Positions 340 through 30,859 of a stretch of 64,000 nt of DNA are shown here, piece by piece (the first letter of the stretch is position 1; every line of letters begins with the position of its first letter). The DNA is from Stenotrophomonas hibiscicola ATCC 19867 (lineage in GTDB: Bacteria; Pseudomonadota; Gammaproteobacteria; Xanthomonadales; Xanthomonadaceae). Both the position numbers and the translations under genes were made by a program. The stretch is taken from NCBI RefSeq assembly GCF_000382065.1, contig NZ_KB907498.1, forward strand, positions 192,714-256,713, given 5' to 3'. The notes below the pieces were generated by a model, which worked only from the letters and a program-made list of their open reading frames with translations, ran no database searches and was not told where the DNA came from.

Positions 340-837
340 TCACCGAAGATCGATGAAGCCGTTGTCGGCCAATTGCCCCGGCTCGTCCTGCACGGCGGAC
401 AGCACGAAATTCAACGCTTTGCCCAACAGCGTGCCCGGACCATCCCAATACTCGGCCGAGTCGGCCCGCACGTGGATCAGGCGCAGGTTCGGATCATCCT
501 TGCCACCCGGGAAGAACAGTGTCATCGCCGGTGACCACAGCTCCTCGATCTTCGCGCGGTCATCGACGACGCGGGCACGCCCGGCCACCGAGACATAGGT
601 GTTGTTCGAGGGCGAGGCATACGCCACGTTGACCCGCGGGTCGAGCGCGATCTCGGCCACCTTCGGGCTGTCGGCGGTGATGACGAACCACAGGTCGCCG
701 TCAAAGGCGACCTGCTGGGTGGCCAGCGGCCGACTGTAGAGCCGTCCGTCGACGCCGGTGGTGGTGAACATGGCCACCTCCACATCCTTGATCAGTTCGG
801 CCAGCTGGTTGACGTGTTCGGCACGGGTGTCGGCCAT
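340..837 (-). CDS. Pyridoxamine 5'-phosphate oxidase-fold general stress protein
   Basis: This 165-residue protein has the split-barrel flavin-binding pattern of general stress protein 26: a segment with TTTGVDGRLYSRPLA, then DLWFVITADSPKV and VAYASPSNNTYVSVAGRARV. Such proteins bind FMN or FAD in the cytoplasm; their substrate is usually unknown. The ATG at 837 is chosen because GGAG lies about ten bases upstream and family members start close to this point. A longer frame to 879 adds residues that do not look family-like. Confidence 0.85.
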   Translation of the reverse strand: MADTRAEHVNQLAELIKDVEVAMFTTTGVDGRLYSRPLATQQVAFDGDLWFVITADSPKVAEIALDPRVNVAYASPSNNTYVSVAGRARVVDDRAKIEELWSPAMTLFFPGGKDDPNLRLIHVRADSAEYWDGPGTLLGKALNFVLSAVQDEPGQLADNGFIDLR

Positions 838-10114: not shown

Positions 10115-11134
10115 TCAGACCTTGGCTTCTAGGGCGGACAACCGGGCGTCGAGTGCCTCGATCTTGCCCGCCTGTACGTCGTTCTCCGCCGCGAGCGCCG
10201 AGACCATGAAGCACAACAGCTCCTCCTTCCGGAAGCTGTAGAGGTCGCCTGCCTCGCGGGCCGGAGTAAGCTCGTTGCCCTCATCGTCGTGGGTGGCAGC
10301 TTCGGCCTCCCACTCGTCGTAGCAGATGAAGGAGTAGGCGAACGGTTCCAGCCCATGCGCCTCCATCACCGCGATAGCGGCCTGAACAGTCGGGCCAGCG
10401 TGCAGCCGGTCCCCGGTCAGCCACTCCCAGATGGCCGGAAGCCGGGCCAGCTCCGAACCTGCCTTGCACTCAGCATCCGACAACTGGCGCGGCTCGGTCT
10501 TGAGGCGGGCGTCGGAGGTGTTGATGGTGCCGTTTACCGCGTATACCTGTGACCAACGGTTACCTGCCTGTCCACTGGAATACAGGTTGTCACCAGCCGG
10601 AACGCTGTTTCCTCGGAAGTAGACAATCGAACTAGCCATGTCGATAACGAGATAGTTCGTCGTCGTACCACTTAGAGTATTGCTCAGGGTAAGTGCTGTT
10701 CCGGGATTCCAGAATCTGGTCAGGTTGCCATTCGTATGGCTAAGAAAGAGAGATGGACCGCCGTTTGAGATGGTTAGGTTCCCCAGCATTGTCTGAGGAT
10801 TGCCCCACGTAACAGTGCTATTGCAATGAGGGATCGTGTTCCCAGAGTTACCTTGGTCAAATGTTGCAACTGTGCCGAGCGCCAATGCCGTCCTCTGCGC
10901 CGCCTGAGTGGTGGCGGCAAGGAGGGTGCGGCCTACGCTGGTGACGGTGTACGTCGCCCATGCGGAGCCGTTGTAGTACAGCGACAGGTCTGCGGCAGCG
11001 GTCAACCCAGCGATGCCTGCAAGGTTGCCGAGGGCGAAATTTCCATCGGCACCCGCAGCGGTCCGGGTCATCACGTTGTCGGTGGCTGCCGGGGTGCCAA
11101 CCGGGTATACGGAGGGGTCTGCGTACTTGGGCAT
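10115..11134 (-). CDS. Tail fibre/spike with C-terminal S74 chaperone domain
   Basis: A 339-residue fibre protein. The C-terminal third begins NGTINTSDARLKTEPRQLSD, the start of the intramolecular chaperone of endosialidase (peptidase S74) domain. The Ser in TSDARLK is the expected self-cleavage site, and the domain ends in a coiled coil (EALDARLSALEAKV). The N-terminal region AALGTVATFDQGN resembles fibre repeat modules. The middle (roughly 10560-10870) is clearly richer in A and T than its neighbours, suggesting that the receptor-binding part was exchanged. Confidence 0.85.
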   Translation of the reverse strand: MPKYADPSVYPVGTPAATDNVMTRTAAGADGNFALGNLAGIAGLTAAADLSLYYNGSAWATYTVTSVGRTLLAATTQAAQRTALALGTVATFDQGNSGNTIPHCNSTVTWGNPQTMLGNLTISNGGPSLFLSHTNGNLTRFWNPGTALTLSNTLSGTTTNYLVIDMASSIVYFRGNSVPAGDNLYSSGQAGNRWSQVYAVNGTINTSDARLKTEPRQLSDAECKAGSELARLPAIWEWLTGDRLHAGPTVQAAIAVMEAHGLEPFAYSFICYDEWEAEAATHDDEGNELTPAREAGDLYSFRKEELLCFMVSALAAENDVQAGKIEALDARLSALEAKV

Positions 11135-11897: not shown

Positions 11898-13075
11898 CAG
11901 CTTGCGATACTCCGGTCAGAGAAACGGCGCCATTTCGTGCCTGACACCACGGTGGAGTCGTACCAGCAAGGCTCGGGGTTGCCGGTAGCGAGGTCGGTGA
12001 TAATGACCATTCGCCCCAGCGATACCGGCGTCAGGGCATTGGCCTGAGCCAGCGTCATCGCCACGAGGGTGTGAATGTCCCCGAGGGTCTGCAGCGACCA
12101 TGCCCCACCACTCGATCGAAACGCATAACCCTGCCCAGACAGGCCAGCAACGCCGGTCAGATTGGCCGGGACGCCCGACAGCCACTGGTAGGGGATCTGC
12201 GCCGAATTGGCGTATAGCGGCCTTCCCTGCTGGTCTGTCAGCGGATTGCCAAGCTGATCCGTCAGGACCGACCAGCGCAGCAGCACATAGGGGCTGTTCG
12301 GGCCATCCAGTGGCGCCCACGCCAGACTCTGCCGGGCATAGGGCAACCCGTCGTTCGGCGCTTCGGGGAAATACTTGTTGATCGTGCCGGGCGGCAGATC
12401 GTCGGTAGTAGCAGCCTGGGTGCCGGACACCCTGCCCTTAGCATCGCGGGTGATCTTGACCAGCGCCGCACCAGCACCGGAATCGGGCAGGTTCGATAGC
12501 GAGATGGTCGGTAGCCCTGCCGCTGCATTCCCGTTCGCCACGTCGATCTGCTGCGCGGTGCCGGTGATCGTGGCGTCTTTGGTGCCAGTGACGCGCCCTT
12601 TGCCGTCCCGTGTGATCGCCAGCAGCGTACCGGCGCCAGAGTCGGCAACATCGGCGAGGCCGAACGTGGTCACGCCATCGGTGCCAATGGCTTTTGTCAG
12701 CTCTCCAGCCGCAACCGTGATGGTGCCAGAGACAGGGAACCAGCCCTTCGTGCCATCCGGGCCGGTGCCGTAGTACTCAGTGTTGCCTGGGCTTTCCTCA
12801 TCGCCTTGCAGGGTGATGACCACCACATAGCCAGGCTGCGGTATGCCGTTTACCGCGATGGACTGCTGTCCGAGGATCTGGAAGCTGCCGCCCTCGCCGT
12901 CCTCCAGCGCCGCAACGCGGGCAGCAAGGGCCTCATAGAGAGCACGCAGGTCATCGCTCGATTGGGCCGAGGCCAGCCGCAGGAAGTAGTTCGCCCACGC
13001 CTGCGTGACCCGCCCTGCCTGATCAACTACCGGCTGGTCAAAGCGCGGCTGTTCGCCAGGGAAGCGGCTGACCAT
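11897..13075 (-). CDS. Phage tail fibre/adsorption protein with internal repeats
   Basis: A 392-residue protein. It carries two imperfect repeats beginning DSGAGTLLAITRDGKGRVTG and DSGAGAALVKITRDAKGRVS, about 52 residues apart, as in beta-helical fibre shafts. A collagen-free glycine-rich middle and a C-terminal domain (MVIITDLATGNPEPCWYDST) seen in other phage fibres follow. The start at 13075 overlaps the previous stop as ATGA. The open frame upstream to 13105 is rejected for that reason. Confidence 0.75.
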   Translation of the reverse strand: MVSRFPGEQPRFDQPVVDQAGRVTQAWANYFLRLASAQSSDDLRALYEALAARVAALEDGEGGSFQILGQQSIAVNGIPQPGYVVVITLQGDEESPGNTEYYGTGPDGTKGWFPVSGTITVAAGELTKAIGTDGVTTFGLADVADSGAGTLLAITRDGKGRVTGTKDATITGTAQQIDVANGNAAAGLPTISLSNLPDSGAGAALVKITRDAKGRVSGTQAATTDDLPPGTINKYFPEAPNDGLPYARQSLAWAPLDGPNSPYVLLRWSVLTDQLGNPLTDQQGRPLYANSAQIPYQWLSGVPANLTGVAGLSGQGYAFRSSGGAWSLQTLGDIHTLVAMTLAQANALTPVSLGRMVIITDLATGNPEPCWYDSTVVSGTKWRRFSDRSIAS

Positions 13076-13866
13076 CAGCTGGCTACCTTGCCAATCGCTC
13101 GCCACATCACCGGCAGCGGGCTGCTGAGGTTGTATTGGGACCTCACGTCATCGACGCCCAGGTCCCAATAGATCGTAGCTCCTGTAGTGCTTGCGGTAGC
13201 TCCAATGTCACCGATGAACCCAGCAGCTACCGCGCCGGAACCCCGGTTTATGGTCACCTGGACGTTCGGGACAGTGGCATATGCGACAGGGAAGTTGAAC
13301 GAGCCACTCGCAATCTGTGCCCCGCTGGCTGGGATTGAGAACGTCCCCCACTGCTCAAGGATGACCGAACTGGTGCCGACGTACTTGACCGAGGTGTCCG
13401 TGACCACGATTGGCGAAACCGGCGCCGTCGGCTGGGCCTGGAGGACATAGCCACCACCACTGGCAACGACCATCTTGCCGTCCGAGCCGGTCGGGTCAGG
13501 AAGCTGGATGATGTCCTCCCACAGCACCACCGAACCGTCATTGGTCAGGAACTTGCCTGCCTCGAGCGTCGGGAACACGTTGTTCCCCACCGAGCCGTCA
13601 TTCACATCCCGGGTCCAGATCACGGCGCCAAGGCTATCGGTCAACCGTACGGTATAGGACCCGGACAGCCAGATGTTCACGTTGGCCCGGCCCGAGCTGT
13701 CCAGCGGCACCGGGTTGGTATTCGGGATCGTCAGCCCCTGGTTTGACCATGTCATGCGGGGATTGGTCGTGCCCTGGTCATAGAACTGCAGGAAGCCACC
13801 GGCCACCGGCTGATTGCTCAGGATGTCGAAATACACCGGGTTTGGGTCGTAGAAGCGGCCGCTCAT
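13075..13866 (-). CDS. Phage tail protein (fibre base/adaptor)
   Basis: A 263-residue protein starting MSGRFYDPNPVYFDILSNQP, with GGFLQFYDQGTTNPRMTWSN and VPLDSSGRANVNIWLSGSYT. This N-terminal pattern is common in podovirus tail proteins that attach fibres to the tail. The C-terminal half (WGTFSIPASGAQIASGSFNF) looks like a lectin-type beta domain. ATG at 13866 has GGGAGAT upstream. It is the first gene after two tandem terminators, so it should have its own promoter or rely on antitermination. Confidence 0.7.
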   Translation of the reverse strand: MSGRFYDPNPVYFDILSNQPVAGGFLQFYDQGTTNPRMTWSNQGLTIPNTNPVPLDSSGRANVNIWLSGSYTVRLTDSLGAVIWTRDVNDGSVGNNVFPTLEAGKFLTNDGSVVLWEDIIQLPDPTGSDGKMVVASGGGYVLQAQPTAPVSPIVVTDTSVKYVGTSSVILEQWGTFSIPASGAQIASGSFNFPVAYATVPNVQVTINRGSGAVAAGFIGDIGATASTTGATIYWDLGVDDVRSQYNLSSPLPVMWRAIGKVAS

Positions 13867-13878
13867 GGGATCTCCCAA

Positions 13879-13903
13879 AGAAAAAGCCCGCGTTGACGGG
13901 CTT
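13879..13903 (-). terminator. Rho-independent terminator
   Basis: On the minus strand AAGCCCG-TCAACG-CGGGCTT is followed by a T-run (A-run at 13881-13885 on the plus strand). Confidence 0.8.
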
Positions 13904-13910
13904 CGGGCAT

Positions 13911-13935
13911 AAAAAAACCCGCTCAAGGCGGGGCT
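13911..13935 (-). terminator. Rho-independent terminator, tandem
   Basis: The stem GCGGG/CCCGC is followed by seven T on the minus strand. With the next hairpin it forms a double terminator after the 51-residue gene at 13964-14119. Confidence 0.7.
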
Positions 13936-14322: not shown

Positions 14323-14499
14323 ATGTCCACAGGTGTCGTCATGACTTGGCTCTATGCCATCGGCCTGAAACTGCTTTTCGCGCCGCTTTTTGTACTGGCT
14401 TACTGGCTGCTTGCCATCAAGGGTGGAAACGCTCTGGTGCGCTGGTTGATCCCCAGCCAGAAGTGGCGAGACTTTCTGACCAAGGACCGCTACTTCTAG
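14323..14499 (+). CDS. 58-residue membrane microprotein on the opposite strand (possible moron)
   Basis: A small plus-strand gene starts MSTGVVMTWLYAIGLKLLFA and has one long hydrophobic segment to about residue 32. A basic amphipathic tail with several Trp follows and ends in TKDRYF. Its stop overlaps the stop of the large minus-strand ejection gene, so the two are convergent. A single gene facing against the late operon is typical of a lysogenic-conversion moron. The composition with a clear membrane helix argues that the frame is real. Ribosome site is weak. Superinfection exclusion is a guess. Confidence 0.55.
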   Translation: MSTGVVMTWLYAIGLKLLFAPLFVLAYWLLAIKGGNALVRWLIPSQKWRDFLTKDRYF

Positions 14500-16739
14500 T
14501 CAGCTGAAGGCTGAGCCGAGCGGCCTGCCGCCAGCGCAAGCTGGTTGAGCGACTTACGGACAACCCCGGCATCCTCCTTGGGAAGCGCGGCCAGAACCCG
14601 TTGAGCCTCTGACGGGTTTGCCATCAGATACGCCAGTCGCTCCGACAAGCGCTGATTAGCCTGCTGCTCGAAATGCTCGAAGAGTGGCCCAACCCACGGC
14701 AGCCGGCTGCCAACGCCACGCACAGCGGCTCTCTCGCCAATGCTCAGCCGCTCCGCAGTCTGGCTACCAGCTGTCGCCGACCGGCTACGCTGGGCAATCC
14801 TCTGCATGTCGTCTTGAATCGCGCGCAGCGACGCCAGGTCATAGGCAGTCAGGATGTCAGTAGCCCTCGCCTTCTTGAAATCAGTGGCCTTGGCGGCGAT
14901 AGCATCCAGATCGTTGGTCGAGCGCGACACGCCCGACGGCGTAAGGATCGGGTTCCCGAGCTGGTCTTGCGCAGTGCTAGATGAGCGAGAAAGGATCTCT
15001 CGACCAACTTCCATGCGGTTGATTGGTTTGGAGGCATTGCGGTAGGCAGAGAGGTATTCAGGGAAGCTAGGCGCACGGTTTGCCAGCTCGCTGTCCAACG
15101 CCTCGCGAAGTTGCATCAATTCTCGGGAAGCTGCACGCGCATAACTCTTGTCGGCGCCAGCCTTGCCCTGCAAGAGGTCCCCGATGTACTGCCGGACAAG
15201 GTATAGCGACCCAACCGACTCGCCTGCGGAATCAAGAGCTCGGCCAACGTCGTTGATCGCAGATTGAACGCTCGGGCGTGGGGCATACTCAGACGACATG
15301 CGAGATGCCATAAGGCGAAGGTTACGTAGGCCCTCTGACACATCCTCGCCTTGCAGCCTCTGGGAGGGGGTCAACGAACGGTTGGCCTGCTCCAGTGAGG
15401 ATTCAAACTGGCGACCTTCCGCCATTGCCCTCTGCAATGCCGTGTCGACCACACTCTCGCGCGCAGCTTCGGCTGCTGCCATGTCGCCCTCGGTTCCAGC
15501 GATATTCTGCAACTGTTGCACACGGGCGGCGTTGTTTCTCAAATCGATGGGCTCAAATGCACCTCGATTCCGCGCACGCATCAGATTCTCCAAGGCCATG
15601 AGGCCGGAATCGCCACTAGCCTCGCCCAGGGTCCGCTGTACGCCGGGGACATCAGACTGAGTAATAGTGAGGTTGTTCGGGTTGGTAGCCTCGCGCGCCA
15701 GTACATTACCGGCCTGCCGGTCAGTGGCATTGAGGCCGGTACGCGCCAGGAGGTTTCGGCCGGTGTTCAGAGCAGCACCCGCGCCCTTTGCCGCAAGAGC
15801 GCCAGCGCCGCCGCCCACTCCGCCCAACAGCGCGTTCCCAACACGCTCATTCTCCGAGGCGACCGGCTGCAGAGCGCCGATGGTTAGGCCCTGAAGAGCA
15901 TTGCCTCGCACAGTGGTTGGCAGAAGGGCATTCGCGGCCGTAGTGCCGCGAGCTGCGACGCCAGGGCCAAGGATCTGTGCAATCGTCCCAAGGACATTCC
16001 CGCTGAACCCGGCCCCAGTATCAAGCAGTGGCCGGTCAATCTCTCGGCGCGCAGCTTCCTCATCACGCAGTCGCTTGCGCTCGGCCCCAAGCTTGGAAAG
16101 GGCAACCAATCCGCTTTCCAGGAAACCACCACCGCTCAAGGCGCCAACAGTCCCCTGCTGCAATGCTAGAAGAGGTGAGGATCCAACGTCGCCAGCGGCC
16201 TGCTTCAACCCCTGATACGTATCAACCAAAGACTTGCCGACGCCAGCGCGAAATCGGTCGATACCGCTCATGTTGTCGGTGGGGTTAGGAATGCCTCCTC
16301 GACCGACATCACTCTCCCTTGTGCCACCGACAATGTCGATGTTCAGGGCCTGATCGCCACCTGCAGGCTCGTCATCCCAGACAATCGTGCTGGGGTCTGG
16401 GCGGTCGTACATGCGCGCTTGATCGTTATGGAGACTTTCTGCATATGCTGTTGCATTCTCAGGAGTGTCAAAGGCCCCGAGGTTCCGACCAGTGCGCCGG
16501 AACAGATCAATCGCATCATCATCGCTGAGGATCCTACCGTCATCGGAGACGGTCGGGATCAGGTACTCACGGCCGTCAAAGTTCGCGGAGATTGAGCGTA
16601 CAGTCGAGATCGATCCATCCGCGTTTCGAACTACAGGGCGTTTGGTGAGGTCGATGTTGCCAGCTGACAGCTGCCCACGGGCCAGCTGCGGCCGCTGGGG
16701 CTCGTCGTCCCAAACGATGGTGGACGGATCAATTGCCAT
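14496..16739 (-). CDS. Large internal/ejection protein
   Basis: This 747-residue protein is probably carried in the capsid and ejected with DNA (the place of P22 gp16). Residues 4-14 and 115-125 repeat the peptide DPSTIVWDDEP. Between them is a module beginning NIDLTKRPVVRNADGSISTV with EYLIPTVSDDGRILSDDDAI and DTPENATAYAESLH, which I know from many phage internal proteins. A Gly/Ala-rich hydrophobic stretch near residues 200-330 could enter membrane; the C-terminal half is helical. ATG at 16739 overlaps the stop of the preceding gene by 11 bases. Confidence 0.75.
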   Translation of the reverse strand: MAIDPSTIVWDDEPQRPQLARGQLSAGNIDLTKRPVVRNADGSISTVRSISANFDGREYLIPTVSDDGRILSDDDAIDLFRRTGRNLGAFDTPENATAYAESLHNDQARMYDRPDPSTIVWDDEPAGGDQALNIDIVGGTRESDVGRGGIPNPTDNMSGIDRFRAGVGKSLVDTYQGLKQAAGDVGSSPLLALQQGTVGALSGGGFLESGLVALSKLGAERKRLRDEEAARREIDRPLLDTGAGFSGNVLGTIAQILGPGVAARGTTAANALLPTTVRGNALQGLTIGALQPVASENERVGNALLGGVGGGAGALAAKGAGAALNTGRNLLARTGLNATDRQAGNVLAREATNPNNLTITQSDVPGVQRTLGEASGDSGLMALENLMRARNRGAFEPIDLRNNAARVQQLQNIAGTEGDMAAAEAARESVVDTALQRAMAEGRQFESSLEQANRSLTPSQRLQGEDVSEGLRNLRLMASRMSSEYAPRPSVQSAINDVGRALDSAGESVGSLYLVRQYIGDLLQGKAGADKSYARAASRELMQLREALDSELANRAPSFPEYLSAYRNASKPINRMEVGREILSRSSSTAQDQLGNPILTPSGVSRSTNDLDAIAAKATDFKKARATDILTAYDLASLRAIQDDMQRIAQRSRSATAGSQTAERLSIGERAAVRGVGSRLPWVGPLFEHFEQQANQRLSERLAYLMANPSEAQRVLAALPKEDAGVVRKSLNQLALAAGRSAQPSAD

Positions 16740-18291
16740 ATTCGATGGCCCCGTCGCTGTACTGGACGACCGGGCGTCCGTTGGAGGTGCCTCGGCGGAC
16801 GATGGTGCGCTGAGCGCCCTGTTCCCGAGATGCCGACGACTGCCTGTTCGCATACTTCCTGTTCAACGAACGGATCTGCTCGAGCGCGGCAAGGCGCGTC
16901 TGGACTGGCAGCGTATCGTTGGCAAGGTCACCGGCCATCTGCTTGTAAAGTTGTACATCACGATCCGACTGCGGGCCTTCCATACGCGGCATCTTGGAAG
17001 TCAGCTGTCCCGCGATTGTCTGCAGGGCTGCAGTCGCCTGGGCGCCTTGGGTGGATCGGCCGAAAACGCCCGCCAACCGGTCAGCACCAGCACCAATAAG
17101 GCTACCCGTGGCGCCCGAGTTGAGGATGGCCTGCGCATCGTCAAGCAGGTCGAGAGCCGTGTTCGCATCCCGGGTGCGAGTTGTCTGCAGCTTGTTGGCA
17201 TCTGCTTGGGCGCCAACCTGTGCTTTGCCAGCCTCCTGAGCAAGGGCGGCCTGGGTGCGCATCGCCAGCTCCTGCGGGAGGAACTGCTGCTGAGTACCCA
17301 GCTTTGCCGCCTCGACAGCCGCCGCCTCATCCTCTGGGCGGCGACCGGCGAACAGGTTCGCACCACCGCCAGCACCGCCAGCACCGCGAGGCACCTGCAG
17401 GTGGATGTGATCGCCCTCATCGATGGCCTGATAGCCCAGCTGGCGCGCACGGGAGATGAATGCAGGCTTCTGGTTGGTCGGGACTGCATAGTCTGCTGCA
17501 GTGCCATTGAGATGCTGGCTGTTGGGCTGACCTCCGACCTGGGCATTGCGTTCGGCAGAACGCACACCGCTGGTCATCATCACCGACGGGAACTCAGTCG
17601 CCAGCTGGCTGAAGGCTGCGAAGTGGTTGCCGCCTCCCGCCATCGGTGCCGGCTGCGAGAACGAGCCGTAGCCGGTGCCGTCACCCACGACCTGCGCACC
17701 AATCTGACGCGGGTCAACGGCCACCAGACGTTCAACACCGTCGGGCCCCTTCACCTTCTGATAGCCGATGGCTGCCGAGGACTCCCGACCAGCCAGGCCG
17801 AGGTTGATGCGGCGTGCGCGCTCCACATCTTCCGGGCTCAGACCCTGAGTCATCATCTGGAAGGAGCGCACGTCAGTGGGCGTCTGCCCATTGAAATTCG
17901 GCGTGTTGCTTGCAACCGACAGAACCTGGTCAACGATGGGCATCACCGTGGCCGCATCGAACTGATCGGGGATCTCAGCGCCGAAGTTCCTCTTTAGGTA
18001 TGGCAGCGCCGAACGGTATACGCCCGCCTGCATCTGCGGATTGTCGGCATACTGCTTGAGCGTCTTTGCCAGACCAACAAGCTGCTGCTGCTGCCTGTTG
18101 CCTTCGGATTGGTATGCCTCAGCTCGCTTGGGGTCCAGTGCATATGCTCGGCTTGTTGCATCCAAATCACCAGCCATGACCTGAGGAGCAAGAGTCTGCA
18201 GCTCGGCCAGCATGTTGCGCTGGGTGATCGCATTCTGCCGCTCAAGGCCGTTGGCCTGCCCACGTGCGAAGGCTTCGTAGAAATTTGCCAT
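16729..18291 (-). CDS. Ejection protein with M15-like peptidase domain
   Basis: A 520-residue late protein in the position of P22 gp20. Residues about 240-300 carry a D-Ala-D-Ala carboxypeptidase-type fold: TSGVRSAERNAQVGG, NSQHLNGTAADYAV and DEGDHIHLQVP. The zinc ligands expected are His260, Asp267 and His295 or His297. The rest is helical and Gln-rich. The likely job is to cut peptidoglycan cross-links as the DNA channel crosses the wall. It overlaps the preceding gene as TGATG. Confidence 0.8.
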   Translation of the reverse strand: MANFYEAFARGQANGLERQNAITQRNMLAELQTLAPQVMAGDLDATSRAYALDPKRAEAYQSEGNRQQQQLVGLAKTLKQYADNPQMQAGVYRSALPYLKRNFGAEIPDQFDAATVMPIVDQVLSVASNTPNFNGQTPTDVRSFQMMTQGLSPEDVERARRINLGLAGRESSAAIGYQKVKGPDGVERLVAVDPRQIGAQVVGDGTGYGSFSQPAPMAGGGNHFAAFSQLATEFPSVMMTSGVRSAERNAQVGGQPNSQHLNGTAADYAVPTNQKPAFISRARQLGYQAIDEGDHIHLQVPRGAGGAGGGANLFAGRRPEDEAAAVEAAKLGTQQQFLPQELAMRTQAALAQEAGKAQVGAQADANKLQTTRTRDANTALDLLDDAQAILNSGATGSLIGAGADRLAGVFGRSTQGAQATAALQTIAGQLTSKMPRMEGPQSDRDVQLYKQMAGDLANDTLPVQTRLAALEQIRSLNRKYANRQSSASREQGAQRTIVRRGTSNGRPVVQYSDGAIEYGN

Positions 18292-19154
18292 CAGGTCCTC
18301 CGAGTGGCCCAGTAATCACCGAATGCACCGCCGACACCGGCAAGCGCGTTGTTCCAGGCCTGACCCTGGTTGAGATAGGACGAAGCGCGGGCGTTGCCTG
18401 CGTTGGCGAGCTGGTTACCGATCTGACCTGCGGTGTTCTGGCCCAAGCTGTTCAGCTCGCTATTCGCCGAGCCGCCGAGGCCTGCCAGTCGGAAGAGCGA
18501 GTTCTGGAAGTTGCCGAAAGCCTTTGAACCAAGGTTCGACGCGAAGGTCATCCGGTCAGCGTCGGCTCCGCCCGAGTACAGACCGCCACGAGCAGCAGCG
18601 CCACGGTCGAGAGCGTTGATGCCTTCATCTCGCGCCACGAGGTAGTCGGGCGTCTGATAGAACATGCTGAAGTCAGGGGTGCCAGTACCCTGATCCACGG
18701 TCCCGCCTCCCGCCGGCGCATTGCCAGTTCCGCCGCCTGTGGAAAACTGAAGGCTCCCACCGCCACCAGTGCTGCCACTGCTGAAGAAGCCCATCGGGTC
18801 GTAACTGGTGCCGCCGAACTGTCCGGCGAGGTTGGCAGGGTCAGTGATCTTGTCGAAGAGGCTGCGCTTCTTCTTCTTGGCTGGTTCAGGCTGGGTGATC
18901 TGAATGCCGCTAGAGAGCGGCGCCGAGTATGTCGGCAGGCCATACATCTGTGCCAGCAGGTTGAGCGCGCCCGTACCGGTCACCTGATACGGCAGCGTGT
19001 CCGCACGGCTTTGGTTGTACATCGCCACCTGGGCGTTGATCGAGTCGCGAGATGCACCCGTGGCCGCATCGCCTGCACGCCCGGCAGCGTCCGCCTGCAT
19101 TTTCCCGCCAACAAGACTGCCGGCAGCCCCCACAATTGCACCTACAGCTGGCAT
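18291..19154 (-). CDS. DNA transfer/ejection protein (P22 gp7-like)
   Basis: A 287-residue protein with a hydrophobic, glycine-rich start (AVGAIVGAAGSLVGGKMQAD). A low-complexity Gly/Ser linker follows, then a helical C-terminus containing YQTPDYLVARDEGINALDRG and ARGGLYSGGADADR, a pattern common to small ejection proteins of P22-like phages. A ribosome site GGAGAGCT precedes ATG at 19154, one base after the previous stop. Confidence 0.75.
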   Translation of the reverse strand: MPAVGAIVGAAGSLVGGKMQADAAGRAGDAATGASRDSINAQVAMYNQSRADTLPYQVTGTGALNLLAQMYGLPTYSAPLSSGIQITQPEPAKKKKRSLFDKITDPANLAGQFGGTSYDPMGFFSSGSTGGGGSLQFSTGGGTGNAPAGGGTVDQGTGTPDFSMFYQTPDYLVARDEGINALDRGAAARGGLYSGGADADRMTFASNLGSKAFGNFQNSLFRLAGLGGSANSELNSLGQNTAGQIGNQLANAGNARASSYLNQGQAWNNALAGVGGAFGDYWATRRT

Positions 19155-19155
19155 A

Positions 19156-19713
19156 TCAGCTCTCCAATACCGAATAGTCGTCGTTCATCACTGCCCAGCG
19201 GTATCGCAGGCGCAGGCCCTTGTTCTTGTTGTCCATTGCGCAGCAGCGCTCATACGCCCATTGCGGGCCGTCCGTGCCGCGCAGCCAGAGATCAATGTCC
19301 CAGCTGTAGTGCTTCACGTCGTGGGCAACACCACCGCGCAGGAAGGCAGTAGGTCGCACGTAGTCGAGGCGGAATCCGACGCGCTCGGTCAGGCGCAGGG
19401 CTGGCACGTTGTCTACCGGCACCTTCGTGACGATCTTGGTCATTTCGGTCCCGCAGAACAGGTATTCCGCCGCCTGAGCACAGAACCGGGCCACGCCCTT
19501 CGATCCCGGCAGGAACATGGTGTGTACCTCAACAACACCATCGCCAAGCCGGTGGAAGAAGAACCCGCCGCCCTCAAACTCGATCCCGATTCCTTGATCG
19601 AAGATCGCAGCTAGCGGCCACGACCCCTCCACGCCATCCGGTCCAATCCACGGACGCACGGCGGGGTGATCCATGACTTCCTGCAGGAAGCATGGATCGG
19701 TCGCAATCTTCAT
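19156..19713 (-). CDS. P22 gp14-like head/ejection assembly protein (DUF2824, GNAT-like fold)
   Basis: A 185-residue protein. The segment MTKIVTKVPVDNVPALRLTE followed by RVGFRLDYVR resembles the acetyltransferase core (N-x-x-A-x-R-L-x-x-x-x-G-F). However, the usual acetyl-CoA loop is not evident, as in the gp14/DUF2824 proteins of P22-like phages. Position between the gp10-like and gp7-like genes is the P22 order. Whether it has any enzyme activity is unknown. ATG overlaps the previous stop (TGATG). Confidence 0.7.
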   Translation of the reverse strand: MKIATDPCFLQEVMDHPAVRPWIGPDGVEGSWPLAAIFDQGIGIEFEGGGFFFHRLGDGVVEVHTMFLPGSKGVARFCAQAAEYLFCGTEMTKIVTKVPVDNVPALRLTERVGFRLDYVRPTAFLRGGVAHDVKHYSWDIDLWLRGTDGPQWAYERCCAMDNKNKGLRLRYRWAVMNDDYSVLES

Positions 19714-19940
19714 CAGTCTTCCGTCTGTTCCGGGGTCAGAACCGCGCCCAGAAGGTCATGCTTGCGCGGAGAGGAAACGCGTATGCGGAAAACGCGCTGC
19801 CGGGACTTGCCCAGGCGCATGAAGCGCACGCGCTTGGCATACTGCCCCACCTCACCAATGCTGCGTTGCTTCCAGTTCGACCAGTTCGCACCGCCGTCGA
19901 CGCTGTAGCACATTTCCACGTAGTGGTCAGTGTCAGCCAT
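19713..19940 (-). CDS. Separate C-terminal piece of the gp10-like tail hub protein
   Basis: A 75-residue protein, MADTDHYVEMCYSVDGGANW onward, with WKQRSIGEVGQYAKRVRFMR and RQRVFRIRVSSPRKHDLLGA. This is what the last strands of a gp10-type packaged-DNA stabilisation protein look like (DGG-x-x-W-S-N-W ... R-V-F-R-I). Its ATG overlaps the stop of the upstream gp10-like gene by eight bases, so it is translationally coupled. I infer that an insertion separated it from the N-terminal part. Confidence 0.65.
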   Translation of the reverse strand: MADTDHYVEMCYSVDGGANWSNWKQRSIGEVGQYAKRVRFMRLGKSRQRVFRIRVSSPRKHDLLGAVLTPEQTED

Positions 19941-22377
19941 CTGATTCACCCGATGTCCATCTAACACAGGTTGATGTGGTGGTTGGTGTCGGAGGCTGGT
20001 TCGCATCTAGCACAAGATCACCGCCGTGGGTGAGCAGAACAGGGAGGCTGGGAGTGCCGGATGTCGCTACTGTGATCCGTGTCTTGTCGCTGGATATTGA
20101 ACTGTCATTCACAGTCGATGAATTCTGCCAAGTCGTCGGACTCGCAGTGCCAAGGCTCCCGCTGGAGAATGGGTAACGCCGAGCTGAGGCTGCTCCTGAT
20201 CCAAAGGAATAGACCCACTGCCCATCGGCAGAGAAATATGCTCCACGACCGCTACCAGTTGAGCTTTGTGCTTGCAACGTAATTGCAGAATCAGTTACCA
20301 GCCAAATATATAGGCCAGTATTGTTCCGCTCGGCTACATACTTGGAATCTGGACTCCAATCGAAATCGATACCAGACTGAGCGCCGACAGACGTTGCGGG
20401 AGAATAGCGCGAGCCAATAACGCCGTTACTATCTACTACGTAGACAGCGCGCCAGTTGAATCCACCCCCCGATGATGTCCCAACGATTACACGCTTGCCG
20501 TCTGCTCGCCATGACACAGTGGTAGCGTCTGTCCCAGCTGCCGACGACGAAACTATCGAAAGGGTGTCGTCTGACTGATTAACGGCATAGACAAACAGCG
20601 TCGTGCTGGTGAGTACTGCCAAGAACTTACCATCAGGGTTGAACCTGCAGTATCGACAGGTTCCAGTTGTAGGCTGCGGCGGAGATGGCAGAAGCGTGTA
20701 TTGCGTACCTGCTCCATTCAGCTTAGCCCAGCTCAGCACGATGGTTGAAGTCCCCATAGGCCCAGCGATGTACTTTGCTGACCTGGAAACCGTCAGGCCC
20801 AAGTAGGTGCCTCCGCTTCCAATCGGATTGCTCCCGTAGAGTACATATGTCCCGTCAGCCTGCATCCGGTACGAGCGTGCTTGGTCCATGAAGGCTGGCA
20901 GCGTCGAATAGATCTCGACCTGGTAGGACTTTTCATCCCACATCTGGGCTGAATCAGTTACTCGGATCGTTACCGCCCCGGAAAAACTTTGGGATGGGAC
21001 CCCGCTGATTACGCCTGTAGCCGCCGTTAGCGACAGGCCGCTAGGAAGCGTTCCATCAACCACCGCGAACGTATACGGCGCAGTCCCTCCAGACACTGGG
21101 ATTGTGTAGCTATACGCATTCTCGACGTAACCAACAGGGAGTTGTCCAGACAGAACCGGCATCGAAGGCTGAGCGGGGAACGCAATAGGCGCTGTTGGCG
21201 GCCCATGCCCGGTGTCGAAGATCAGCTCGGCATTGGGCAGCAGCAGCGCGCTCTGATTGTCAGCCACTACGCCGGAGCTACGCTCGCTAATGATCGGCTG
21301 ATCGCCCTCGAGGAAATAATCCCAGTCGAGCTGCCAGGTGCGCCCGTTCTGGAAGTCGCCGCCAAACCAGTCGCGCCCCCACTTCTGGGTATGGCTCAAG
21401 CGCCAGCGGTTGATCCCGAAGGACTCGCGGCGATGCCACAGGCCACTCACCACGTCGTAGCCGAAGGTCTGTCCGTCAGGGAAGGTCAGATAGTAGACCT
21501 TGTGGCCGCGATCCTCCCAGGTGAAGGCGATGGCCTCGGCCCAGTTGTAGCCGGAAATGGCCTTCTCTAGCGCTCGTGTGGACACCGGACGGGCTGCGTA
21601 GCCTTCCATGCGGTAGACCACGCCGTCATCGCCGAGCCAGAACAGGGTGTTGTCCAGCTTCTGGATGGTATGACGTGACGCACAGCCACGGGTGATCGAC
21701 TGGCGGCGGTTCTGGAACGTGCCAGTCTGGCCGCCAGCATTGAAAAAGAACTCAATCGTCCGCTGCCCGAAGACGACGACCTCAAACTGGCTAACGGCCA
21801 GTCCTACGATCTTGTCGGGCGCGGCCTCAGCCTCGTATCGATCAAGGGTGTTGTAGTCGGTGGCGTCAGCAAGGTTGGAGTGGAACCAGAAGCGCCCCTG
21901 CGGCTCCACGCCCAGCAGATACGAGTCGAGGTAGTCCGACGAGATCGAACCGGGGTAGCCCTCGTCCGTGATCTTGGCGAAGGTGTCGTCTACCGTGTTG
22001 TAGACATACCCGCCACCGCCCTGCCCGTTCTCAACCAGCACCTGATAGCCAGTCTTGAACTGGTTGTGCGTCATCTGGACGCGGCCGACACCAGGGATGA
22101 TCCCCAGCGGAACGCCAACGCCAGTGTTGCTGATACGGTAGAGGTATCGGCCCGACACGATCAGTCGCAGCCCTTCGCAGTCGTGCATGCCGCGAATCGG
22201 GCCAGTGCCAATCTGCTGGTAAGGCTTGAGGCCAGGGGGAGTCGCGAACATCGACACAGTCCGCGTCCCAGCCACCTCCGCCATCACCGGCAGCCAGTTC
22301 ACCGTGTCCTGGCACGACCACGGCAGGCTATCGCTGGTGTAGAAGCCGCCGATCAGGTCTACGGGCTGAGCGCGCAT
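19933..22377 (-). CDS. gp10-like tail hub/DNA stabilisation protein carrying an inserted Ig-like plus beta-propeller module
   Basis: An 814-residue protein. Residues 1-392 (MRAQPVDLIGGFYTSDSLPW, VVFGQRTIEFFFNAGGQTGT, GRTWQLDWDYFLEGDQPIIS, NAELIFDTGHG) fit the P22 gp10 family that closes the portal. Residues about 408-490 are a putative-Ig (He_PIG) domain: GTAPYTFAVVDGTLPSGLSL, TGVISGVPS. Residues about 495-790 look like WD/TolB-type propeller blades (CRYCRFNPDGKFLAV, TTVSWRADGKRVIV, IDFDWSPDSKYVA, AYFSADGQWVYSF). The DNA for the added part (about 19940-21200) is visibly lower in GC. The C-terminal gp10 strands appear in the next gene. Confidence 0.75.
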   Translation of the reverse strand: MRAQPVDLIGGFYTSDSLPWSCQDTVNWLPVMAEVAGTRTVSMFATPPGLKPYQQIGTGPIRGMHDCEGLRLIVSGRYLYRISNTGVGVPLGIIPGVGRVQMTHNQFKTGYQVLVENGQGGGGYVYNTVDDTFAKITDEGYPGSISSDYLDSYLLGVEPQGRFWFHSNLADATDYNTLDRYEAEAAPDKIVGLAVSQFEVVVFGQRTIEFFFNAGGQTGTFQNRRQSITRGCASRHTIQKLDNTLFWLGDDGVVYRMEGYAARPVSTRALEKAISGYNWAEAIAFTWEDRGHKVYYLTFPDGQTFGYDVVSGLWHRRESFGINRWRLSHTQKWGRDWFGGDFQNGRTWQLDWDYFLEGDQPIISERSSGVVADNQSALLLPNAELIFDTGHGPPTAPIAFPAQPSMPVLSGQLPVGYVENAYSYTIPVSGGTAPYTFAVVDGTLPSGLSLTAATGVISGVPSQSFSGAVTIRVTDSAQMWDEKSYQVEIYSTLPAFMDQARSYRMQADGTYVLYGSNPIGSGGTYLGLTVSRSAKYIAGPMGTSTIVLSWAKLNGAGTQYTLLPSPPQPTTGTCRYCRFNPDGKFLAVLTSTTLFVYAVNQSDDTLSIVSSSAAGTDATTVSWRADGKRVIVGTSSGGGFNWRAVYVVDSNGVIGSRYSPATSVGAQSGIDFDWSPDSKYVAERNNTGLYIWLVTDSAITLQAQSSTGSGRGAYFSADGQWVYSFGSGAASARRYPFSSGSLGTASPTTWQNSSTVNDSSISSDKTRITVATSGTPSLPVLLTHGGDLVLDANQPPTPTTTSTCVRWTSGESDG

Positions 22378-22784
22378 TACCAGCGATACCCGTCACTGCG
22401 GGTGTTGTAGCGGCAACGGAAGCCTGGGATGCCGCGCTCCATCTCCATGGGGCTGGAAGAAAACACATCAGCCAGTACGTCAGACTTCAGCCGCCTAGCC
22501 TCTTCAAAGACATCCGGATCAATGCTCACGCCGTAGCGCGGGCGAAGCTTGACGGCAAGGTTGTACATGATGGCCTCATCGGCCTCCGGCACATTCGGCA
22601 TCTCGTCGGATGGGTTGGAAACCGGAGACCAACCCACTGAGTAGCCGTTGGCTTCCCAGCGGATCATCATCTGGTTGAGGGTGAAGATGCCCGTCTCCAT
22701 GTCCTCGGCCTCCGGGGCCTCCGTTGCATCCAGAACGCGCAGCAGGCCCAGGGCTCCAGAAACGATTTCGGAAACCTTCGACAT
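22377..22784 (-). CDS. P22 gp4-like tail accessory factor
   Basis: A 135-residue protein starting MSKVSEIVSGALGLLRVLDA, with LNQMMIRWEANGYSVGWSPV and LAVKLRPRYGVSIDPDVFEE. This pattern is that of gp4-type DNA stabilisation proteins, which bind the portal ring after packaging. Some gp4 proteins have muramidase activity; I see no catalytic motif here. The stop and the ATG of the gp10-like gene overlap as TAATG. ATG at 22784 is used because the upstream residues lie in the terminator. Confidence 0.8.
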   Translation of the reverse strand: MSKVSEIVSGALGLLRVLDATEAPEAEDMETGIFTLNQMMIRWEANGYSVGWSPVSNPSDEMPNVPEADEAIMYNLAVKLRPRYGVSIDPDVFEEARRLKSDVLADVFSSSPMEMERGIPGFRCRYNTRSDGYRW

Positions 22785-22795
22785 GGCAAACCCCC

Positions 22796-22825
22796 AAAAA
22801 GAAGGGGCGCCCCGAAGGACGCCCC
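22796..22825 (-). terminator. Rho-independent terminator inside the late operon
   Basis: GGGGCG/CGCCCC stem followed on the minus strand by TTCTTTTT. It lies between the coat cluster and the gp4-like gene, so it would lower tail-gene transcription relative to coat unless antitermination is active. Confidence 0.75.
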
Positions 22826-22848
22826 AATTCACTGACTACTGCGACTTG

Positions 22849-23118
22849 TTACTTCTTACCAGCGGCTTTGGATTCAGCCTTGGCCTCGCGAGCATCCAGC
22901 TTTTCCTGGCGTGCACGATTGGCCTTCTGAACCTCGGCGGCTGCATCAGCTGCAGACACCTCGTCTGCCGGAACCTCGGGATTCCAGTCCTCGCCGTTCG
23001 AACGCGGAAACTTCGGATACTCCCAGCCATCGGCCAGTGCATCTTCGACTTCGTCGCCCGCGAAAAGCTCCACTTCGCCATCCTTGTGAAGGTATTTGGC
23101 GTGCTTGAACTCAGCCAT
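22849..23118 (-). CDS. Small charged protein downstream of coat
   Basis: An 89-residue soluble protein, MAEFKHAKYLHKDGEVELFA onward, with a C-terminal Lys/Ala/Glu-rich helix. AAGGAGG lies ideally upstream of the ATG. It is found next to the coat gene, so a head-completion or decoration role is possible. No family recognised. Confidence 0.65.
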   Translation of the reverse strand: MAEFKHAKYLHKDGEVELFAGDEVEDALADGWEYPKFPRSNGEDWNPEVPADEVSAADAAAEVQKANRARQEKLDAREAKAESKAAGKK

Positions 23119-30315: not shown

Positions 30316-30561
30316 TTAGAACGATCCCGGCTTGGCCACAGCGCGGGTCAGCGCCATCAGGCCGGTCTGGAAGTCGGTCTTGGCAATTGCAGACCAGCGG
30401 TAGCAATCGCCCTTGTCGCCCTCGATCGCGGTGTTCGTGTCGTTGACCTTGTTGACCAGGGCCTGCAGCTCCTCACCCTTCGCCTTGATCTCGTTCATCA
30501 GGTCGATCTCGGCCTGGCTCAGTTCCCGGTAGCCGGTGATCTTGCGGTGCTGGTTTTCCAT
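30316..30561 (-). CDS. Acb2/Tad1-like cyclic-nucleotide sponge (predicted anti-CBASS/anti-Thoeris)
   Basis: An 81-residue helical protein. The N-terminus MENQHRKITGYRELSQAEID with LMNEIKAKG and the C-terminus RWSAIAKTDFQTGLMALTRA with VAKP match the Acb2/Tad1 hairpin family as I remember it. Those hexameric proteins sequester cyclic di- and trinucleotides so that host CBASS effectors are not switched on. Tyr11 and Lys26, reported as ligand contacts in Acb2, fall at the same positions. ATG at 30561 has GAGGA upstream. The frame runs on to 30639 without similarity. It is placed in the lysis/late cassette directly after Rz. Confidence 0.75.
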   Translation of the reverse strand: MENQHRKITGYRELSQAEIDLMNEIKAKGEELQALVNKVNDTNTAIEGDKGDCYRWSAIAKTDFQTGLMALTRAVAKPGSF

Positions 30562-30571
30562 GAATGAGTCC

Positions 30572-30859
30572 TCAGAGAACGCTTCGGTCGTTGATGCTAT
30601 GCAGGTCGGCCAAGATGCTGGACAGGAGGGCGTTCCCATTCATCAGCACATCCACGAGCGGGGCACGCTCAGGAACCGGATCAGAACAGCACGCGTCGGC
30701 TTTGCCGTTCCGCTCCGGCGCCAACACCTTTGCGAATGAAGAACGGGTGCGGATCACAGCATGGGACAGCTCGTCCATGAGGTCGCGCTGTACCCGCAGA
30801 AGGCTATCGACTTCGGACGCCGGCATAGCCGGAGCAATCTCGCTTGAACCTTTCAACAT
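30572..30859 (-). CDS. Small helical phage protein, upstream of the Acb2-like gene
   Basis: A 95-residue protein (MLKGSSEIAPAMPASEVDSL, LMDELSHAVIRTRSSFAKVL, LMNGNALLSSILADLHSIND). It has two predicted helices around a Pro-rich centre. It is 11 bases from the Acb2-like start and likely co-expressed with it. No family that I can name. Confidence 0.6.
   Translation of the reverse strand: MLKGSSEIAPAMPASEVDSLLRVQRDLMDELSHAVIRTRSSFAKVLAPERNGKADACCSDPVPERAPLVDVLMNGNALLSSILADLHSINDRSVL

Follow-up and report, generated by a model that had tools for sequence, protein, structure and literature searches.

A probable two-chain tail hub of the P22 gp10 type in a Stenotrophomonas prophage, with an exchangeable module at the break

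The DNA analysed here (the window) is a 64,000-nucleotide stretch of Stenotrophomonas hibiscicola ATCC 19867, and the genes of interest are listed in Table 1. Family matches find portal, coat, gp4-like adaptor, gp10 and ejection genes in the P22-type order, those for the gp4-like adaptor having been made on 22377–22787. The gp10 position is taken up by two overlapping genes in different reading frames. Separate tail-fibre genes lie at 10115–11134 and 13075–13926 of the same prophage, and a search of Rfam over 19000–23000 for an RNA element at the junction gave nothing at gathering thresholds. We think it likely that the locus encodes the tail hub (P22 gp10 = Hc3 = tubeB/nozzle type) of a P22-like prophage in two chains, with a socket for adhesion modules at the break.

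Table 1. Features of the hub locus and its neighbours, in window coordinates
Feature	Position	Strand	Basis or content
DNA ejection protein, downstream	18291..19154	-	phrog_598, E 1.2e-35; P22-like tail order
185-aa gene between chain 2 and the DNA ejection protein	19156..19713
Chain 2, 75 aa, gp10/Hc3 C-terminal platform strands	19713..19940	-	phrog_578 positions 409-467; phrog_19101 positions 525-593
8-nt overlap ATGGCTGA, chain 1 stop and chain 2 start	19933..19940	-	likely translational coupling
Chain 1, 814 aa	19933..22377	-	gp10/Hc3 hub N-part, Ig domain and predicted seven-bladed propeller
Seven-bladed beta-propeller module (predicted), residues ~508-814	19936..20856	-	AlphaFold2 model
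Exchangeable cassette, starting after codon 393 and ending at the last base ahead of the chain 2 ATG	19941..21198	-	DNA similarity to L003-L007 breaks off there; low GC3
He_PIG Ig-like domain, residues 413-488	20914..21141	-	PF05345, E 1.8e-13; pLDDT 82-92 (residues 421-490)
Hub N-part, gp10/Hc3 residues 1-393: N-terminal platform strands, hub propeller, beginning of C-terminal platform	21199..22377	-	phrog_578 positions 1-400; PDB 7eeq, 9vyg and 8tvr by profile
Upstream neighbour, gp4-like adaptor (Ad3)	22377..22832	-	PF11650, 26.1 bits; phrog_637, E 1.8e-23

The first-pass annotation had read the front of the 814-residue chain as gp10-like and the 75-residue gene, whose ATG overlaps the stop by eight bases, as the gp10 C-terminus, and both identifications are borne out. 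The phrog_578 profile (head closure Hc3 = gp10) matches chain 1 at residues 1–393 over positions 1–400 of 486 (E 1.6e-109) and chain 2 at residues 10–68 over positions 409–467 (E 7.3e-11). Since the two chains match successive parts, a single 486-position profile has been cut in two; the C-terminal strands of the family are present in chain 2 and absent from chain 1. By profile comparison, the solved homologues 7eeq and 9vyg hold the N and C parts within one chain, as do intact relatives, and chain 2 aligns to the last strands of these single-chain hubs (residues 367–432 in 7eeq). The cut falls where an intact relative has a flexible hairpin, which joins the strand that ends near residue 387 to the one after it. 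P22 gp10, Sf6 gp8 and the Pam1 needle head protein are of the same family by profile and position, but they are single chains of 442–472 residues, whereas the window hub is interrupted at the C-terminal hairpin, where its module is attached. A single polypeptide is a usual, not a defining, trait of gp10/Hc3, and the window has two chains. With PF11134, the window chain scores 23.4 bits against a curated cut-off of 25, a threshold that comes from another library and is not the definition used; only L004 among eight chain-1 relatives lies above it (25.8 bits), as does L076, scored separately (29.6 bits). On sequence and gene order, we class the locus as a split member of gp10/Hc3. The split-hub reading also explains the unannotated phrog_19101 (595 positions), whose last ~70 positions are the gp10 C-part, as well as the small genes of 73–75 aa downstream of gp10.

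The module attached to the hub N-part has the He_PIG-then-propeller order first proposed for it. The Ig-like domain scores 51.1 bits in Pfam against a cut-off of 24, and the AlphaFold2 model of the residues behind it agrees with a seven-bladed fold, with VIA Z scores of 25.5 to 3ow8_A and 25.4 to 1l0q_A. WD40-type Pfam matches in the propeller module are weak and below their cut-offs.

Only the N-part was used to search for relatives, and the 80 best of 149 were kept, so the ratio of split to intact loci is weighted to near relatives. The C-part is present in 71 of these 80 loci, and the other nine end at a contig end. Among the 64 distinct loci that are not cut by a contig end, 54 are split and 10 are intact, and those whose N-part shares at least 80% identity with the window are split without exception. 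The first-pass annotation had named as evidence against its reading a finding that all homologues carry the 75-residue protein as a separate gene; this is the case for the close relatives examined and fails overall, since intact homologues exist. One locus, L009, is scored as intact at site 391 despite being cut at 57. The wider count comprises 97 loci, 80 of them distinct, and nine of these 80 lack a C-part since their contig ends; it leaves out L018, L020–L041 and L121 onward, which are window copies, Ig-only matches, genome matches or later fetches. That a frameshift mutation, pseudogene formation or a sequencing error broke a normal gp10 in one prophage has in its favour only the bare single-sequence observation and is practically negligible, given the same two-gene layout in 54 of the 64 relatives and the mostly synonymous changes in chain 2 (47 identical, 23 synonymous and 6 nonsynonymous codons between the window and L004).

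In the tree, all 28 rows of the clade that holds the window sequence (row L002) are split. The intact row L077 is placed inside split rows, and therefore splitting is reversible or has arisen more than once; a topology with the split rows as one clade is rejected (p-AU 4e-5). A second cut site of the same design is found at residue ~57 in another lineage, and the split occurs in another bacterial family also (G299).

The base composition had been taken to mark recent entry of the insert. The drop itself is real: GC is 0.623 in the N-part, 0.560 over residues 394–490, 0.541 in the propeller and 0.610 in the C-part, and the corresponding GC3 values are 0.812, 0.557, 0.518 and 0.763. The drop and the existence of intact homologues would both fit a recent foreign insertion that split an intact gp10 in the window lineage. 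This reading is extremely improbable, however, as the whole window clade is already split, close relatives differ in the module and not in the split, and in 51 of 52 split loci GC3 is lower in the insert than in the N-part of the hub. A single insertion event in the window phage is thus rejected. The GC drop does not serve as a clock either: inserts in general have low GC3, which therefore characterises this class of cassette.

What has changed recently can be read from the borders of the cassette. DNA similarity to five relatives (L003–L007) ends 0 to 11 codons past codon 393 (between 21200 and 21166) and restarts between 19942 and 19940, 0 to 2 nt ahead of the chain 2 ATG. The closest relatives, L003 and L004, have N-parts 96–97% identical to the window, and their inserts give only a 75-residue Ig match (44%) or no match. 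On these alignments, the recent event is an exchange of the module and not the split. Synonymous differences (pS) were compared by part in nine hand-picked pairs. For L054/L055, pS is 0.04 in the N-part, 0.04 in the Ig, 0.79 in the module and 0.10 in the C-part; for L046/L047 the values are 0.24, 0.17, 0.75 and 0.43, and a jump in the module is seen also in L007/L047, L058/L061, L002/L003 and L002/L004. There is no such jump in L072/L073 (0.39, 0.19, 0.37 and 0.42) or L090/L092 (0.69, 0.64, 0.74 and 0.69), and L082/L083 is intermediate. N and C identities are correlated over 55 split loci (r 0.81, 0/1000 permutations). Judged from these comparisons, the hub parts are conserved and inherited together with mostly synonymous change, and the module between them is swapped wholesale, the replacement spanning the end of the hub N-part (or of the Ig) to the chain 2 start codon. 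Replacement of a whole module is not the pattern expected of a diversity-generating retroelement target, the marks of which are a linked reverse transcriptase and adenine-directed changes that go with a template repeat.

Frameshifting or readthrough is known for some Ig domains of tailed phages, and the overlapping frames, a 97-aa open frame at 19713–20006 and the presence of Ig-like domains would be compatible with programmed ribosomal frameshifting or readthrough at the overlap, giving one fused protein in place of two chains. The likeness extends to an Ig on a virion protein at an internal gene boundary; the window locus differs in having a start codon, a variable phase and a separate conserved gene. 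In 47 of 48 adjacent pairs, the chain 2 start lies −8 to +3 nt from the chain 1 stop, with gaps in some cases and overlaps in others. A constant frame relation is a mark of the programmed-frameshift virion Ig domain, but the 48 relatives have their chains in phases 2, 1 and 0 in 30, 13 and 5 cases, and in the phase-0 cases a stop codon stands between the chains. Because the junction varies over all three phases, frameshifting is disfavoured. All 48 have a start codon, counted as the in-frame start nearest the profile match, where the C-part begins or close to that point, and an SD-like motif is present in 24 of the 48 junctions versus 6.6 expected (a looser pattern, with no control set, gives 30/48; the controlled count is 24/48). 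The restart of DNA similarity at the chain 2 ATG or at most 2 nt before it in the five relatives also argues against fusion. On the phase and start-codon evidence, fusion by frameshifting was rejected, and we regard it as very improbable.

Two separate chains could still have separate work. If chain 2 acted on its own under selection, for example as an assembly factor, chain 1 would be a hub with an incomplete platform, and this possibility has in its favour that we place chain 2 in the virion by inference. The alignment of chain 2 to the last strands of 7eeq and 9vyg, its presence in every one of the 71 loci from the N-part search that are uncut by a contig end (best 80 of 149) and its co-inheritance with the N-part speak against it. 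The structure models point the same way. AlphaFold2 places residues 1–52 and 317–403 of chain 1 alone below pLDDT 50, and the hub propeller of this model reaches only about 55–86; modelled without chain 2, chain 1 fails at the platform and the last blade. The low pLDDT of chain 1 may be partly due to a mixed alignment (A3, 29 rows, unlike modules). The model of the intact relative L077 has pLDDT 80–93 over 311–390 and 52–85 over 1–50, and superposes on P22 gp10 (8eap) with a Z of 38.4 over 439 residues at 2.3 Å. We therefore consider an independent role of chain 2 improbable.

Among the relatives, the modules include WD40- and BNR-type propellers and LamG (LamG_3), which are adhesion-type families, and the second pieces of some relatives carry GTA-TIM (GTA_TIM) or tail-fibre domains. 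In two relatives, tail-fibre PHROG families occupy the site as well: fused to the C-part in L079, and as intervening genes in L085. L081 matches phrog_19101 over its full length; the GTA_TIM tail-protein body of this family differs from the window module in being an alternative plug-in before the C-part and not behind the N-part. Propellers and LamG domains have other roles besides adhesion, and WD40 propellers are general scaffolds. The scaffold nature of such propellers and the separate tail fibres of the prophage speak for a reading in which the chains are separate and chain 2 completes the hub, but the module, instead of being displayed as an adhesin, serves in structure, assembly, host takeover or superinfection. 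Against this reading stand the tail-fibre families at the same site and a pattern of diversity and exchange such as recognition modules would be expected to have; we judge it unlikely though deserving of real consideration. Since the prophage has its own tail-fibre genes, the module is not necessarily its principal adhesin.

The two-chain tail hub, with the break as a plug-in site for adhesion modules, is in our judgement the probable reading. We infer both the rejoining of the chains and receptor binding; the latter would follow from the domain types and rapid exchange, and comparative and in-silico evidence supports the suggestion, already made in the first-pass annotation, that the pieces rejoin with the module displayed. 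Its observation stands confirmed, and its interpretation is partly supported. In the proposed mechanism, translational coupling would supply both chains together, and chain 2 would complete the platform domain by strand complementation as the hexameric hub docks, through its platform, onto the ring of the gp4-like adaptor (Ad3). This would leave about six module copies projecting next to the fibre/tailspike docking region and binding the host surface, and modules would be replaced by recombination. An insertion in a loop has to keep the frame on both sides; with the chain cut, it would instead be a fusion at a chain end, closed by a stop of its own, and the site would in this way be a frame-free socket for adhesion modules. 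In this virus and many relatives, the domain on the cut end of this short-tail protein differs from phage to phage, probably so as to alter the cell surface that is gripped.

Several known systems resemble parts of this arrangement. Central hubs of the lambda gpJ type and tail fibres have variable C-terminal receptor-binding domains. They share with the window hub a conserved virion-bound N-part and an exchangeable C-terminal recognition part, but their variable domain ends the protein, whereas in the window hub conserved strands come after it, in a second gene. In the nozzles T7 gp12 and SU10 gp17, as described in the accessible parts of the reports, N- and C-terminal segments form a platform around the propeller, and extra domains and a fibre dock are present (PMC6702177, PMC9509320). 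The two-segment platform and the extra domains are shared with the window hub; on the same partial accounts, the nozzles are single chains with internal extra domains and with fibres as separate proteins, whereas the window hub is two chains, and these parts of the reports describe no exchangeable cassette (PMC6702177, PMC9509320). Tail tubular proteins are able to bind receptor, according to the accessible part of another report (PMC7241545), and the APSE "DNA stabilization" trio, as far as the accessible text goes, looks like an ordinary gp4/gp10/gp26-like set by size and order (PMC8579659). Among the open-licence PMC papers listed in literature searches, no title or beginning of an abstract describes a split gp10.

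In its widest form, which we put forward tentatively and at slightly under an even chance, gp10-type hubs would be a general two-chain display platform. The chain would be cut at the ~57 loop or the ~391 hairpin, an exchangeable adhesion, lectin-like or enzyme-like module hung on the cut end or before the second piece, and the hub rebuilt by strand complementation. The locus L009 has two alternative first pieces with different modules; these could share a slot, so that a single virion could carry mixed rings. Work on how phages recognise receptors usually looks to fibres and tailspikes, and the annotation given to gp10 is that of a head-closure or DNA-stabilisation protein. In many podophage contigs, exchangeable recognition modules appear to plug into the hub itself, and fibre-based prediction of host range would miss them. 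The arrangement would also be a natural case of a structural protein cut in two, with one end an interchangeable terminus, at two positions of one fold.

Finally, phage and plasmid records were searched. With the window C-part as the tblastn query, 13 named phage records were found, and the N- and C-matches are in one frame in 13/13 of these, so that no cultured split phage was seen among them; MW202691 is annotated as a single CDS of 1380 nt. Other queries gave 25 (another split C-part), 52 (window chain 1) and 61 (the L114 N-part) phage records. In a plasmid collection 32 records matched, and among the 15 matches listed, 13 cover the Ig region only and two cover part of the hub.

The minus strand of the window carries a P22-like structural block, recognised by Pfam and PHROG profile matches, in which the gp10-type tail hub is encoded by two genes (see the table). 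A single profile, phrog_578, is divided over chain 1 and chain 2, and the chain 2 ATG overlaps the chain 1 stop by 8 nt, which confirms the first-pass annotation of a split hub with its C-terminus in an overlapping gene. In PDB 7eeq (Pam1) and 9vyg (Pan3), the corresponding N- and C-terminal hub parts (N-part and C-part) lie in a single chain. In structure comparison, the modelled propeller that ends chain 1 resembles WDR61 (VIA Z 25.5) and the YVTN propeller of an archaeal surface-layer protein (Z 25.4).

Structural block, hub domains and tail-fibre genes in the window
Feature	Position	Strand	Remarks
Sf6-type small terminase, then large terminase		minus	profile matches
P22-type portal		minus	PF16510, 594 bits
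Scaffold		minus	between portal and coat in listed order
P22-type coat		minus	110 bits
gp4-like adaptor		minus	phrog_637; precedes hub
Chain 1	19933-22377	minus	814 aa; residues 1-393 match phrog_578 profile 1-400 of 486
He_PIG domain	chain 1 residues 413-488		after hub part
Seven-bladed propeller	chain 1 residues ~508-814		structure model
Chain 2	19713-19940	minus	75 aa; phrog_578 profile 409-467
DNA-ejection protein		minus	beyond hub, with a 185-aa gene in between
Tail-fibre or spike gene	13075-13926	minus	separate from hub; weak gp53-like fibre C-terminus, below Pfam cut-off
Tail-fibre or spike gene	10115-11134	minus	separate from hub; S74 endosialidase chaperone domain

The cassette between the hub parts is sharply bounded, and its module has been replaced among close relatives. 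DNA similarity to the related loci L003-L007 is lost within 21200-21166, the last base of codon 393 being 21199, and it restarts between 19942 and 19940, where the chain 2 ATG begins (19940). The hub parts of L003 and L004 are 96-97% (N) and 92-93% (C) identical to those of the window; the L003 insert shares the Ig domain alone (44% over 75 residues), and the L004 insert shares nothing. Synonymous differences were compared in nine hand-picked locus pairs. The values per site for L054/L055 are 0.04 (N-part), 0.04 (Ig), 0.79 (module) and 0.10 (C-part). The module jump is also seen in L046/L047, L007/L047, L058/L061, L002/L003 and L002/L004 (L002 is the window's sequence), the last three jumping in the Ig as well; L072/L073 and L090/L092 show none, and L082/L083 is intermediate. 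These patterns suggest that recombination exchanges the modules, with the Ig sometimes serving as upstream homology. Most changes in chain 2 are synonymous: the window has 55 identical, 16 synonymous and 5 nonsynonymous codons relative to L003 and 47, 23 and 6 relative to L004, and the pattern is less strict relative to L007 (37, 24 and 15). Across 55 loci, N- and C-part identities are correlated (r 0.81; 0 of 1000 permutations).

The split itself is conserved. From a search with the N-part only, 80 of 149 viral loci were kept as the best matches; 71 of them have the C-part, and the other nine end at a contig end; duplicate removal left 73 loci, 64 of them uncut (54 split, 10 intact, that is, with the hub in one gene). 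Counting all loci gives 97, of which 80 are distinct and 71 uncut, with 55 split and 16 intact. The C-part occurs in 4 of 91 genomes of the genus sample, always within a short open frame (97-114 aa), and in 6 of 369 genomes of the class sample, four times in frames of 475-653 aa. One of the two short frames of the class sample is that of the genome holding the window (97 aa); the other belongs to a genome of a different family (G299, 81 aa), in which chain 1 has 961 aa and chain 2 has 74 aa. The C-part of the window matches 13 records of named phages, and the split is absent from all of them; we found no description of a split gp10-type hub in the open-licence literature searched, judged by titles, abstract openings and passages. 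In a tree of the N-part, the intact state occupies the most divergent rows. A single clade of split rows is rejected (p-AU 4e-5), with five changes of state, so the cut was gained or undone several times. The intact hub gene L077:4432-5835, nested within split rows (support 100/99), either was re-fused or has a separate history. As an architecture, the split is recurrent and predates this phage, and the module is what moves. The first-pass interpretation is supported in part; its timing, with the low GC as the mark of a recent entry, is not supported for the split.

Chain 2 starts -8 to +3 nt from the chain 1 stop in 47 of 48 adjacent split pairs, the relative phase is 2 in 30 pairs, 1 in 13 and 0 in 5, and an SD-like motif lies upstream of chain 2 in 24 of the 48 (6.6 expected from random module positions). 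On sequence grounds, these features fit coupled independent initiation; frameshifting between the chains does not fit them.

Structure models place the cuts. The model of intact L077, with a mean pLDDT of 87, can be superposed on P22 gp10 across 439 residues at Z 38.4, and many WD40 structures align to the L077 propeller (~46-353). By analogy with T7, residues 1-45 and 354-467 are taken as the platform. The position of the cassette corresponds to the hairpin that joins strand 377-387 to strand 400-406, where pLDDT falls to 62, and a second cut falls in the loop linking strands 49-55 and 61-67. According to the available text of PMC6702177, the T7 gp12 platform likewise has three strands from a 45-residue N-terminus, and an outer-surface fibre dock joins propeller and platform. 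The available text of PMC9509320 places the SU10 short-fibre dock loop on blade 1, among the blades far from the axis. Chain 1 modelled without chain 2 has pLDDT below 50 at 1-52 and 317-403 (platform and last blade), compared with 52-85 over 1-50 and 80-93 over 311-390 in L077, a suggestive but uncontrolled comparison, given the different alignments behind the two models.

The second cut site is used in L009 and in L129-L134, which are six of the seven relatives of L009; the seventh, L135, ends at a contig end. In these loci, hub residues 1-~57 and a module form chain 1, while chain 2 consists of the hub propeller with the C-terminal strands. Over these genes, L129 equals L130 and L131 equals L132, leaving five distinct. 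L129 and L133 share 94% in the first piece and 87% in the second, with modules that have no match to each other at E 1e-3. L009:2156-4509 holds two tandem hub N-terminal pieces (~57 residues each), both carrying an Ig but differing in their modules, ahead of a single second chain common to both; no further locus was found when the second copy was used as the query. In the identical L010 and L011, both sites are cut, the first without a module.

The modules are diverse. Among 52 inserts scanned, with overlapping categories, He_PIG occurs in 26, WD40-type propellers match the THOC3 (10) and EML (8) profiles, and Sortilin (5), BNR (5), LamG_3 (2) and DUF7483 (2) are also found. The C-part lies more than 1 kb farther downstream in 7 of 55 split loci. 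The second piece of L081 (6608-8416) is a GTA_TIM protein (E 1e-106) with the gp10 C-part at its end, matching end to end phrog_19101, annotated as of unknown function. The C-piece of L079 is preceded by tail-fibre family phrog_4950, and two tail-fibre-family genes separate N and C in L085. L075:6206-6835, a small gene between the hub genes, has weak glycosyltransferase family 2 matches, and the start of its counterpart L086:6209-6847 resembles it; judged from these matches, it is possibly an enzyme gene carried within the cassette. In L020/L128 (G037), L079 and L085, the chain 1 tail consists of ~30-residue repeats (e.g. '..SPTGGQLRNAF..') that replace the Ig, and more genes lie between it and the C-part.

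We propose that chain 2 would complete the platform through strand complementation, that about six modules would be displayed around the hub, and that these would bind the host surface. Since the prophage has separate tail-fibre genes, the module may act as a second adhesin. On this reading, the split hub would be a case of modular phage adhesion, a known principle, in an unusual construction.

Two further proteins lie on the minus strand of the window. A 785-aa protein (14496-16853) at the ejection-protein position lacks a Pfam or PHROG match. A 107-aa protein (30316-30639) of the prophage matches PF24729, the Acb2/Tad1 hairpin domain, at 60.4 bits against a cut-off of 27 and is presumably a sponge for defence signals.
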